From the NCBI GenBank assembly GCA_950295325.1, contig OX485808.1, positions 13,082,501-13,146,500 of the forward strand: 64,000 nt of DNA, read 5' to 3'. This DNA comes from Polytrichum commune. Its lineage: Eukaryota > Streptophyta > Polytrichopsida > Polytrichales > Polytrichaceae. This document shows positions 15,701-29,633 of the stretch, in pieces (the first letter of the stretch is position 1; every line of letters begins with the position of its first letter). Both the position numbers and the translations under genes were made by a program. Under the pieces are notes generated by a model. The model saw only the letters and a program-made list of their open reading frames with translations, had not been told where the DNA came from and did not search any database.

Positions 15701-17283
15701 TAAATCTTGAAAAACAGTTTGAGACAGATTTGTTTTTAACAATGGGAAATGCACCTTAAAAGGACTGAATGTGTGGTTGGTTGTCCGGAGCAGCAGGGCT
15801 CAAGTGGGCATTCTTCTTCTTGTGTAACGAGTGAGCTCATACGGCCTGAGAATTCGGAGGTTTTGGAAAGGCCTGCGGCAGCGGACAATGTGGTTTTTCT
15901 TCCCAAGGATATGTGGACTGTTCTAAAGGATTCTGGCTCAGGTGGCTCCATTGTTGAGACTGGATGGCTTGTGCAACGCGATTTGGCTCTAGTGTCTGTT
16001 TGCGAATTCGAGAGCTCCAATAAACCAAAAGTGAGTTGCCAAAGTTCTAGCATCTCTTATCATGCCAAAATGAGTTGGGTCCTCAATGAACTGATATATA
16101 ATGTTCTTTGATCAAACCTCCACACCGACTCCAAGCATGCACCCAAAACTTACTGAACATGGAAAGTTTGTATACAAATCAATCAACTCCCGACCATAAC
16201 TCTTGGTTGAATTAAAGGATAAATCTTCCAGTGGATGTTCCACTATGTCCTTGCTAGCAAAAGCTCTCTAAAAGTATAACTATAATCTGTGCATGGTGTC
16301 ATGAACTGGAATGAAGAACAAGCAATGTCCAATTGTAAGATGGCTTCAAGCCAAGGCCTAAATGCAAATCCCACAACAACTCTGAGGTTAAGCTGCCTAA
16401 GGCTGCAATTGTACTCCGATGAATCTTTTTAACACTTATACAATGCATCCAATCATAGTGCGGCTATCCGGGTGAACTAGATATATTCAACCAACCATAT
16501 GGGAACCTAGAGGCTTGCCCTTGGGGTTCATAGTTGTGGCCCAGCTTGTCCGTGCCCATTCAAGGTGTTCACCTCTTAAAGGAGGTAGTAGTGTATGAGG
16601 GCAATCTATGTCTTGTGATACTTGTTTCAGGATAACATATAGACTTTGACCAACTCGAAGATGAAGCAACACCATTTTTCATGGCGGTGGCAATGTTGGA
16701 GTCATCTTTCTTTTTGCCCAATTATAGAAGTGTTCTTTGAAATTGATGAAAGAATGATCTCTGGACATTTGGTGTTTGGCATTGCTAAGCACAATCAATT
16801 GTCCATTAACTTGAGGAAACACTTAATTTTCTGGTGCTCCCTATCACTATGGTCCACCCAATCATAGTGGAGGTATCCAGGTGAATTGGATGTTTTCAAC
16901 CAACATACGAGAACCTAGGGCCTTGACCTAGGGGGAAGATAGGTGCAAGCCAACTTGTCTATGCCCATTCAAAGTATTCACCTTTGAAAGGAGACAATAC
17001 TTTTTGAGGGCCCTCAAGTTCTCGTGATGATGCTTGTTCCGAGAGTACATGTGAAGTTAGACCAACTCAAAGTTGAAGCCAAACCATCCTTCATAATTCA
17101 CGCCAGTGGCAACATTGAAGTCATCTCTCTTTCTGTTCAATTGTAGACAAGGAGATGAAAGAATGATCTTTGAGCATGGTGTTCAGCACAGCTAAGCACA
17201 ATCGATTGTCTATGAACTGAGATTTTCAATTTTTATTGCAGAGGGCTTACCTGAGACTTGAGAGGAGGACATCTTCTGCTTAA
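12760..17283 (+). CDS. Predicted plastid protein of unknown function (4 exons)
   Basis: I join exons 12760-13012, 14654-15309, 15794-16030 and 17242-17283 into a frame of about 395 aa. Exon 1 encodes a Ser-rich, positively charged start (MESILSSRGVLLPSQFPRD) that looks like a chloroplast transit peptide. The exon 1/2 join gives SPGSSTAWEAF. Exon 2 encodes conserved-looking text such as ISGEWDGYSAEF, QCPTLTHP, LLPTVGCEADAAT and ETWEGPFRNGE. Exon 3 encodes NVVFLPKDMWTVLKDSG and ETGWLVQRDLALVSVCEFE. Exon 4 adds only RAYLRLERRTSSA. The donor after exon 2 is a strong GTAAGT; exon 3 has a tandem CAGCAG acceptor, so one residue is optional. Tryptophan- and glycine-rich strand-like segments suggest a beta-barrel (calycin-like) fold, but this is inference. 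I do not recognise a named family. Introns 1 and 3 are full of repeats. Confidence 0.75.
13013..14090. repeat. Intronic tandem array with three-monomer higher-order repeat
   Basis: In intron 1 of the plastid-protein gene, the landmark 'cttgatgtgaatttgag' and variants recur with starts at 13061, 13225, 13383, 13517, 13684, 13841 and 13974. Spacings are 164, 158, 134, 167, 157 and 133 bp. The same long-medium-short pattern therefore repeats with a period of 456-457 bp. Monomer 1 matches monomer 4 ('gttccgagtcatggcgcttg'), and monomer 3 matches monomer 6. The array begins at the exon 1 donor. Confidence 0.88.
16340..16822 (+). mobile_element. 5S-rRNA-derived element, copy A (intronic)
   Basis: Bases 16350-16425 align with the central part of plant 5S rRNA: ATCCCA, AACTC, GTTAAGC, TACTCCGATG, in the right order and spacing. 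The following body ('ccaatcatagtg', 'gggaacctaga', 'cccattcaaggtgttcacct', 'accaactcgaagatgaagc') recurs at 16830-17225 and 29098-29410. It lies in intron 3 of the plastid-protein gene in the same orientation. Candidates are a Cassandra-like TRIM LTR or a 5S-derived SINE. Confidence 0.72.
16830..17225 (+). mobile_element. 5S-derived element, copy B without 5S head
   Basis: Repeats the body of copy A head-to-tail, about 408 bp downstream. It starts at 'ttctggtgctccctatcact', the point where the 5S-like head ends in copy C at 29 kb. It stops just short of the exon 4 acceptor at 17241. Confidence 0.75.
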
Positions 17284-22823: not shown

Positions 22824-22907
22824 GTCAGCATGGCCGAGTGGTCTAAGGCGCCAGACTCAAGTTCTGGTCTTCGTAAGGGGGCGTGGGTTCGAACCCCACT
22901 GCTGACA
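22824..22907 (+). tRNA. tRNA-Leu (anticodon CAA)
   Basis: Perfect 7-bp acceptor stem (GTCAGCA with TGCTGAC) plus discriminator A. The anticodon stem is CCAGA/TCTGG around the loop CTCAAGT, placing anticodon CAA at 22858-22860; it reads UUG leucine codons. A long variable arm (type II tRNA) fits leucine. The A box (TGGCCGAGTGG) and B box (GGTTCGAACCC) match the Pol III internal promoter. The gene has no intron after position 37, although CAA leucine tRNAs often carry one in plants. No CCA is encoded, as expected for a nuclear gene. Confidence 0.97.
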
Positions 22908-26790: not shown

Positions 26791-29009
26791 CTTCAAGGTG
26801 CCTAAAATTGACATGGGTTTCCATCTGGTACGACAAGGTTTGCGGCTTCCTGGATTTGTGGAGCTCCCCCTCTTCTCCCCTAGTCATTGGAATATGAGTT
26901 GAGGCAAAATAAACGCTCAACTTAAATCACGTATTACACATGAATTCCCAAAGTTGCAATTCCACACGACCTCTGCTAATGGAAGAGTTTTTTGTAGAAC
27001 AAGAATTTAATCCTTAAGCTTAGCCACAACAACATCAGGTGTTATCAAATCTCAATGGCTTGTGCAATGATTCAATCAACAATCTTACAACATACTACAT
27101 ATATGTACCATTATGTACATGTTGTGGTGCTTATGGTTCAATATTATCGACCCTGATGTTGAGATATTAAAAATTGCGAGCTAACTTAAAGGACTGGACA
27201 ATCAATTAGGTGTGAACCATGTTATTTTGAGTTTCGACACTGACCTTCAATCTTGACCCATAACTACACACAAGAAGATAAACAAAGAAAACTAGAGTCA
27301 CTTTATCGCGGGGGGTAGGGTTTAATCCCTAAGCATTGGAGAGTTTTCCCCAAAACTAGATTAATTATATTGTGAAGCTTGAAGTCATGTAAAAGAGAAA
27401 AAGAAATTCAAAAAATCCTAAGAGAAGCTTTTGAGTAATGGATCAAACAACACCTCTATACAACTGGCCAATGCATTGAAGCTTCTATCAAAATGTAGAG
27501 TTATCTTTGAAGAGTTTTCATTTGAAAATCCATCACAAATACAAAACTCATGCATGTGCATGTGCTTACCATGAATCATGTGTTCAATGTTGGTATGGAA
27601 TCATCTTTTGGGATTTTTTTAAAGAGATGAAGTCATGTATACCACAAAATTATTGATTTTCCCAAGAACATCCTTCGCTTTGTAGAGCAAGCATTCACCC
27701 TACATTTATATCCCAATCCTTAGATCTTGTGCAAGAGTTTGGCCTAATATAAATGAAACGAATATTCATATTGGCTGAAGTCACCAGCATAAATATACAG
27801 TTGAAGGCACATGCATGTCAATGTTGAGCTCTCACAATTGTAACCTCATCTTAGTGATTGTGGAGAGTCACATGGGTTAAGAACTTCCCCTGAAATCTTA
27901 AGGAAGTGTCCCCTCTTTGAAAAGGGTCATGCGACTATAGGACATGTTCCCCTCAAACAGGAGACCAAATACAGTTGCATAGTCACTATAAAAAATTGAG
28001 GAGATTTAGTTTATAAGTGTGCTTTACATAAAGTCAATCTTCCAACCAAACCGAATATTCGAAGGAGCTGCAATTCTATTGCGGTCATCCAAAACCAAGA
28101 ATCATGAACATATATAATATAAGAGTCCACAAGTACATGTACCATGACCTTTGCAGTGTTCATAACCTTCGAGTATGCTTTGTTTGAAGGGACCTTTAGA
28201 AGCCCCCAACACAAAACTCATAAGAATACAAATATTTTTTCTCTAATAAATCCAATACAAAAAAACAAGGATAGAAGATGTGGGGATGTTTCAACATATA
28301 CCTAATTTAAAACAAGGATCTAATGTGGGGATGTATCAAACATACACCTAATTTAAAGTAACCAATGCCCAATGATTTGCAAATGAATTAAACAATAATA
28401 CCAAGGTTGAAGAACAGAAATCAAATGGCCACATTGGTGGCATGAGAATAAGTATGAAGGCTTTGGCAAGAGATCAAGAGAGTCCTCCAATGTCTTTCTA
28501 CTGGTATTCCCATCCCCAGTACATGATACACATGGACTTTGAGGCATGAAGGTGATTCCACACCACATCATCTTCCTGAATTACTCCTGAATCATTGAGG
28601 AATTCTTATAAGATGAAGTAATCCTCCATCACTCTACATTCACATATCATTGGTTCAATCACTTCAAACTACAACACTGAATCTATACCTACCAAACATA
28701 GGGCTGCATTTTCAACCTTTGTTTTATGATTGCAAGACCTATAAGGATATTATGAGTTGATTCAATGTTAAAATAAATCGTAGCCAAATGTTAAAGTTGC
28801 TGCTGAGAAGATATTAAATCCTGAAGGGTGTGTATCCGCACTAACTCAACATTCAATGTTTGTCACTTGTGTTTGAGGTGTTGAGCAATGTGCCTCATAA
28901 ATTATGATAGGTTGAGTTCTTGAAGACATGTGCAACAACCACCTCCGCAAATCCTGAATGAGAATTGTTTGGTGTTCCAGTTTTAGATGAACTTTGACAT
29001 ATTAAGAGG
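26791..29009. other. Intergenic region
   Basis: No gene recognised. There is a minor 60-bp direct duplication near 28260-28350 ('gtggggatgt.tcaa.cata'). The rest is AT-rich without structure I can support. Confidence 0.55.
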
Positions 29010-29410
29010 TGGCTGACACCCAAGGCCTTACTGCAGATTCCATTGGAAATCAGAGGTTAAGCCGCCTAAGGCCCAGATAGTGCTCGGATGGGTGACCTTA
29101 GCATTTGATTTCTGGTGCACACTACCAGTATGGTTCACCCAATCATAATGGGGGGTATCATGGTGAACCGGATATTTTCAACCAATGATGTGGGAACCTA
29201 GTGGCTTGTTCTTGGGGAGATTAGGTGTGGGCCAGCTTGTTCCTGTTTGTTCAAGGTGTTCACCTTTGGAAAGAGGCAGTAGTCTTCAAGATCCCTCTAA
29301 TTCTCGTGATGTTTGTTTCAGAATTATATATGGAATTAGACCAACTTGAAGCTGAAGCAACACCATAATTCATGTCAATGCCAACATTGAAATCATCTCA
29401 ACTTTCACCT
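29010..29410 (+). mobile_element. 5S-rRNA-derived element, copy C
   Basis: Bases 29020-29118 align, without gaps over about 60 nt, with plant 5S rRNA. Matching words are GATTCCAT, GTTAAGC (29056-29062) and an intact C box GGATGGGTGACC (29086-29097). The body after it matches copies A and B at 16.4-17.2 kb. It lies between the M41-like gene and the 3' end of the convergent ValRS gene. The intact internal control region could still bind TFIIIA. Confidence 0.78.
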
Positions 29411-29633
29411 GTGAGTTCTTTAAAGAAAAGATTCACTTATTTTAATCACAGGGCTGCTTCTAAGAACAGTGAACCTAGGGAAACCCTTATGGATTTGGAA
29501 ACTGATGAACCAAAATCCACATACCTGGTATCTGCAACAAGGTTGTACAGAATGGGCCGATTCATCAATAAATAAATTTTTTCTTTCTAAATGGAGATCA
29601 AAATAAATTGACCCAAATGCAAGTTGATTTGCA

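Follow-up and report, generated by a model that had tools for sequence, protein, structure and literature searches.

A 5S rRNA-headed SINE family in Polytrichum commune sharing its 3' end with LINEs of the same genome

The genome of Polytrichum commune harbours a repeat family of ~393 bp that is very probably a SINE, that is, a non-coding retroposon in which a full-length 5S rRNA-derived head (119 bp in the majority sequence) is followed by a body and by a LINE-like 3' end formed by a hairpin and pyrimidines, and whose propagation would have combined Pol III transcription with insertion by a LINE. The reference copy lies on the forward strand of the window, the whole stretch of 64,000 nucleotides analysed here (C6:13082501-13146500 of a 407.8-Mb genome, of which the contigs C1-C7 measure 42-78 Mb). 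Without its tail, this copy spans positions 29007-29397, resembles the family majority at 84.8% over 394 columns, and has sharp ends in an alignment of 40 copies. The 5S rRNA-derived head covers residues 29007-29122 and includes a box A-like region (GAGGTTAAGCCGCC, 29053-29066) and a region resembling the intermediate element (IE, 29074-29080), both positioned by the alignment with 5S and with boundaries that follow the usual 5S boxes, as well as an intact box C core GGATGGGTGACC (29086-29097, pattern match at C6:13111586). The ensuing body (29123-29367) is conserved in the 40 copies, and BLAST of these copies yields no hit with eight LINE loci below E 0.018. The LINE-like 3' end with its hairpin region (29368-29397) is decayed in this copy and is assigned on family-level evidence, while a 2-nt remnant of the pyrimidine tail (29398-29399) lies between the end of the core and the candidate right target-site duplication. 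The latter (29400-29412, forward strand) pairs with a candidate left duplication (28990-29002, forward strand), the 13-bp repeat being degraded (10/13 matching positions); the same 5' flank compared with the 3' flanks of the 39 other copies returns 8 at most, and two stricter family-wide duplication scans did not report this 13-bp candidate. The original prediction had proposed a 5S-derived mobile element at 29010-29410, either a solo LTR or a separate SINE type. One repeat copy is indeed present there, with its limits now moved to 29007-29397 plus the 2-nt tail remnant; its nature as a mobile element is borne out by the homology of its head with the 5S gene of this genome and by dispersed copies with target duplications. 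As to its type, the SINE is retained, and the start at 5S, the pyrimidine tail, the duplications of 8-18 bp and the end shared with LINEs speak against a solo LTR or Cassandra.

The likeness to 5S rRNA, for which two motifs had been named, GTTAAGC (29056-29062) and GGATGGGTGACC, is confirmed. When the window is searched with the 5S gene of this genome, positions 29020-29098 are returned (76.5% identity over 81 columns, E 5.8e-9), and the Rfam 5S_rRNA model (RF00001) reports 15 bits over residues 29008-29120 (E 3.4; gathering score 38). Over the window, this match appears at a permissive threshold only, and a tRNA alone is returned at the gathering threshold. This tRNA gene (22824-22907, forward strand, 59.5 bits) carries a 12-base insertion in the variable-arm region as compared with the Rfam consensus. 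As the window copy alone is a weak witness at 15 bits, the family of copies was examined. The majority head of the 40 copies (119 nt) aligns over its entire length with the 5S gene of this genome, with 82/117 identical positions and a score of 83 that lies far above those of 500 single-base shuffles (mean -23, maximum 3), and individual copies are 66-76% identical to this gene. RF00001 is found at the head in nine of the 18 SINE loci tested (out of 39) at E<=10, the best match scoring 27 bits (E 0.11). The Rfam 5S score stays below the gathering score on all 18 loci and on the window copy, no Rfam family other than 5S is reported at the head of these 18 loci, and the plain minimum-energy fold of the majority head does not adopt a 5S shape. 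Fifteen of the 40 copies have an unaltered box C core, and across all 40 conservation amounts to 0.915 for box C, 0.838 for the box A-like region, 0.878 for the head on average, and 0.862 for the body. The nuclear 5S genes of the genome carry GATGCGG and GGCCGGAATAGT. Judged from these sequence comparisons, the head of the family derives from 5S rRNA.

Several other 5S-like loci occur in this genome. Elements of ~110 bp are located at L072 (C2:59433400-59434400), L073 (C7), L080 (C4), and L081 (C1), tandemly doubled ~180 bp apart in the first three. L072 comprises a C2H2 zinc-finger exon matching TFIIIA among other zinc fingers, and L073 a C2H2-like stretch. These elements seem to be P5SM, the 5S mimic of plant TFIIIA genes, in doubled form. 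As in the window family, P5SM is a 5S-like sequence in plant DNA; however, the P5SM-like elements are confined to four loci that are paralogous, two of which contain coding sequence for zinc fingers, and do not form a dispersed repeat family as the SINE does. The low-scoring 5S matches at C2:59433593, C7:14288127, C4:54347759, and C1:23658934 were considered as paired LTRs and rejected, being paralogous non-SINE loci. Contig C8 bears, in a row, rbcL, tRNA-Arg(CCG), and an accD-like frame. This plastid gene order, like the 5S type, would suit a bryophyte host, probably a moss, and seven chromosomes would agree with a haircap moss.

A genome search with the interval 29010-29410 returned 42 matches, 40 of them long (the best 40 of 2039 candidates were scored), and the 39 other long matches, taken with ~500 bp upstream and ~700 bp downstream, were aligned with the window copy (n=40). 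In this alignment, whose majority sequence comprises 393 columns, conservation climbs from ~0.4 to ~0.9 at the 5' end and drops again over ~20-30 columns at the 3' end. The copies begin at the 5S 5' end, or a few bases from it, and finish in a (CTTT)n-like tail. The 40 copies represent a dispersed short non-coding repeat with constant ends. The linkage of head and body elsewhere in the genome, whose absence had been named beforehand as refuting, holds: the pattern GGATGGGTGACCN{38,66}CACCCAATCA returns 95 genome matches and its reversed control none. The genome does contain other 5S-like places of the pseudogene type (L074-L079, L082, L083), which would suit a body repeat of other origin that chance or segmental duplication had placed beside 5S pseudogenes. 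Such a pairing is refuted by the 95 exact head-body junctions against none in the reversed control and by dispersed copies with their own target duplications, and we regard it as practically excluded. The body motif returns 484 genome matches, and 20 loci were sampled from the listed, mismatch-free places among them, a selection independent of the head. In this sample the head is detected in 10/20 loci, the 3' end in 16/20, and both in 7/20, the head of the 10 others, and likewise the 3' end where it is not detected, being missing or truncated, interrupted, or too diverged for recognition. Since the head-body pattern is carried by 9/40 aligned copies and the body motif by 24/40, the copy number may be put very roughly at 420 (from the 95 head-body matches) or 810 (from the 484 body-motif matches), the 40 reference copies being the best matches.

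Besides the sharp ends in the 40-copy alignment, target duplications had been proposed as a check on mobility, and half of the copies possess one. Next to the pyrimidine tail, 20/40 copies contain a stretch that repeats the 5' flank directly (score >=8), compared with 6/400 swapped-flank controls, and the length of this stretch varies from 8 to 18 bp; no target duplication was detected in the other 20/40 copies by this wider scan. The latter replaced an earlier scan with a 5' offset that was too strict (17/40 copies at score >=8; controls 2/200). With the stricter scan, a duplication is reported in one of the seven full copies of the body-motif sample (controls 0/42). In 17 of the 20 duplications, 0-5 bases separate the repeat from GGG, and the true start of the element may therefore lie a few bases upstream; in the remaining three, the repeat overlaps the first base. 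At L106, the start of the head is absent, yet a target duplication can be recognized by eye beside the truncation point. Variable duplications beside a 3' tail are the marks of target-primed reverse transcription, and not of LTR integration. This bears on the possibility of a Cassandra-like TRIM seen as solo LTRs, in which the 5S promoter would be inside the LTR and an LTR retrotransposon would provide mobility. The target duplication of Cassandra is short and fixed, as opposed to the non-fixed 8-18 bp observed here. Cassandra resembles the window family in being a short plant element with a 5S-derived internal promoter region, and it provides the precedent for a 5S sequence in a short non-coding plant repeat, as far as the accessible portions of PMC10886601, PMC10853983, and PMC4717578 tell. 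However, the 5S of Cassandra is located within paired LTRs, whereas the window family exhibits no LTR: its copies start at the 5S 5' end or a few bases from it, and their 3' end is LINE-like, with a pyrimidine tail. Paired copies, suggested as a sign of LTRs, were not encountered either, since none of the 39 loci contains a second full copy within its flanks (~500 bp on the 5' side, ~700 bp on the 3' side); at L018 there are just two extra body pieces. We therefore consider a Cassandra-like TRIM highly improbable and retain the SINE.

The body had also been reported to recur at 16.4-17.2 kb of the window, and the family majority indeed matches there at residues 16341-16705 and 16820-17124. The first match belongs to a second SINE copy with a decayed head (16338-16706, forward strand, ends set by eye; 76.7% as compared with the majority over 16341-16705), and the second to a headless tandem duplicate of the body of this copy (16820-17125, forward strand), followed by a duplicated flank. 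This flank has two matches in the genome, both local to 16.3-17.2 kb, and the 16820-17125 body is therefore a local tandem duplication; a longer dimeric subfamily was rejected for the same reason. At another place on this contig, L018 (C6:30883458-30885226) comprises a SINE copy followed by two further tandem copies of its 3' half (query residues 205-390).

The 3' end of the family leads to the LINEs of the same genome. A search by the Pfam endonuclease domain PF14529 scored 150 of 401 candidate places, these 150 all matching, and eight LINE stretches and 20 more 3' regions were assembled into a set of 28 loci. One LINE family possesses an open frame of ~2000 codons encoding an endonuclease, a reverse transcriptase (RT), and an RNase H. 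Between RT and RNase H, its member L046 returns a PF12237 (PCIF1_WW) hit below the curated cut-off (E 2.7e-6), and L048, from another LINE family with the same domain order, returns one above it (E 1.8e-12). In a PDB sequence search, the L046 protein comes closest to R2 proteins, and L1 ORF2p is absent from its eight matches at E<=0.001. The LINE 3' end shows ATTCA(C/T)GCCGGT or a near variant of it and then a hairpin, typically followed by GGGCGTTAT together with a (TTTTCT)n-like tail, and the SINE majority ends with AATTCACGCCGGTGGCAACATTGGAGTCATC and then a (TTTC)n-like tail; ATTCACGCCGGT, the hairpin, and the pyrimidine tail represent the 3' end common to the SINE and the EN-RT-RNase H LINEs. 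When compared with the SINE end against dinucleotide shuffles, 16 of 17 LINE ends reach p<=0.031, the exception being L061 (p 0.167); these 17 are the correctly extracted ends (L055 was left out), and the tests are not independent, the LINE ends being mutually related. Ten of the 28 LINE loci did not yield such a 3' end. The likeness spans only ~35-40 nt, and a plain BLAST comparison between the 40 SINE copies and the eight LINE loci, which returns nothing better than E 0.018, missed it because it is too short; it was found by reading the termini. The pattern ATTCACGCCGGTN{6,22}TTTCTTT returns 188 genome matches, some places being counted twice, and none in the control. Among the matches listed, 16 rows (14 places) are SINE ends when read by their letters, and most others are LINE ends. 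Twelve places were fetched from this list. Ten of them are LINE matches, and for at least four of these the match is limited to the last 80-170 bp, as is seen in 5'-truncated LINEs; the other two, chosen as SINE-type on the basis of their sequence, proved to be SINEs. The exact pattern is present in 0/40 aligned SINE copies, and at the CpG sites of the shared pattern the SINE column counts exhibit C/T and G/A mixtures. Folding gives a terminal hairpin for two forms of the SINE end and for each of five LINE ends. Two LINEs that are 99.5% identical and a third with a near-identical end part right after the tail, so the tail marks the genuine end of the element; recent activity of the LINE is possible. 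Of the other LINE loci, L048 and L050 display a different 3' UTR with a tRNA-like antisense stretch recognized by eye, and L050, L064, and L071 end with ATTCACTCCGGT, a hairpin, and (CTT)n, which represents an alternative form of the terminal signal described above.

Taken as a SINE, the family would have been propagated in three steps. Pol III would initiate at the first base of the 5S head, or a few bases from it, by means of the internal A box, IE, and C box. The resulting RNA would end in a hairpin and a U/C-rich tail similar to the end of the EN-RT-RNase H LINE, and the LINE protein would take this RNA and insert it by target-primed reverse transcription, giving rise to the 8-18 bp duplications next to the tail. 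We infer that Pol III use and recognition of the RNA by the LINE protein were both at work at the time of insertion. The family is old: the pairwise identity of the 40 copies is 71-86.5% (mean 78%), with no pair above 86.5%, the copies resemble the majority at 86.7% on average, and the best genomic relative of the most typical copy reaches 83% (40 of 2379 candidates scored). No young copies are present among the 40 aligned, and the family is probably inactive now. The majority carries TTTT at position 171, and internal runs of T4+ are found in 31/40 copies, T5+ in 7/40, and T6+ in 1/40. An internal TTTT could end Pol III transcription early, which counts against efficient full-length Pol III transcripts and would fit a SINE that has lost Pol III promoter function in its 5S head and whose copies arose via Pol II read-through or another promoter, the shared LINE tail doing the rest. 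The box A-like region (0.838), which is not better conserved than the remainder of the element, points in the same direction, box C being somewhat better conserved (0.915). However, the head is kept from the first 5S base, consistent with a transcription start at this base, the box C core remains exact in 15/40 old copies, and plant Pol III may tolerate T4. A loss of Pol III dependence is thus unlikely, and the SINE transcribed by Pol III from its own head is preferred.

The SINE3 elements (zebrafish, AmnSINE1, the lepidopteran HaSE3, the beetle SINE3-1_TC, and SINE3 of Aspergillus) are the closest to this organization, with a 5S-derived 5' head, a non-coding body, and a LINE-linked tail, according to the accessible portions of PMC7245038, PMC10886601, PMC5063351, and PMC3747384. 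The partners given for SINE3 in these portions belong to the CR1, I, and RTE clades and RSg-1. The window family differs by its land-plant host and its pyrimidine (CTTT)n tail. It shares a T-rich 3' end with the poly(T)-ended plant SINEs (p-SINE, Au-like), a likeness drawn from description and not from sequence. The heads of p-SINE and Au are tRNA-derived. Unlike these, the window family combines a 5S head with a candidate LINE with a U/C-rich tail already in hand. In the sections available, Ohshima 2013 (PMC3747384) suggests partner LINEs recognizing a poly(U) repeat for the poly(T) plant SINEs, and the published plant SINE/LINE pairs were few as of 2013, three in flowering plants and one in a green alga. 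The 5S-headed SINEs named in the literature, as far as accessible, are from vertebrates, insects, and fungi. A plant 5S-headed SINE was not found in the open-licence literature, including the accessible portions of PMC10886601, PMC10853983, PMC4717578, PMC11490119, PMC7245038, PMC5135761, PMC3747384, and PMC5063351 (Repbase and SINEBase lie outside this scope), nor did the searchable portion return a plant description of a 5S head combined with a LINE-like end. In the excerpts at hand, one published report states that Physcomitrella has no TRIMs, and Cassandra is speculated to have arisen from a 5S-headed SINE landing in an LTR (PMC10886601).

This is therefore a real, old 5S-headed SINE family in a host where it was not expected, and a LINE with an unusual U/C-rich tail is its candidate partner. 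A plant 5S SINE supplies the kind of donor that was missing from the scenario put forward for Cassandra; the literature, as far as accessible, names 5S SINEs of animals and fungi. The pair with its U/C-rich tail bears on which LINEs move the poly(T)-ended plant SINEs. More tentatively, and with clear reservations, the family might be a land-plant SINE3 whose partner is an EN-RT-RNase H LINE (with an RT matching R2 and not L1 ORF2p in the PDB search), the RNA of this LINE having a hairpin and a U/C tail at its end rather than poly(A). If this were true, the U-rich end of the Pol III transcript would double as the recognition tail of the LINE, which would then represent the U-tract-recognizing type of plant LINE postulated to account for poly(T) SINEs, and plants would offer a way to test whether Cassandra arose from a 5S SINE, as has been proposed.
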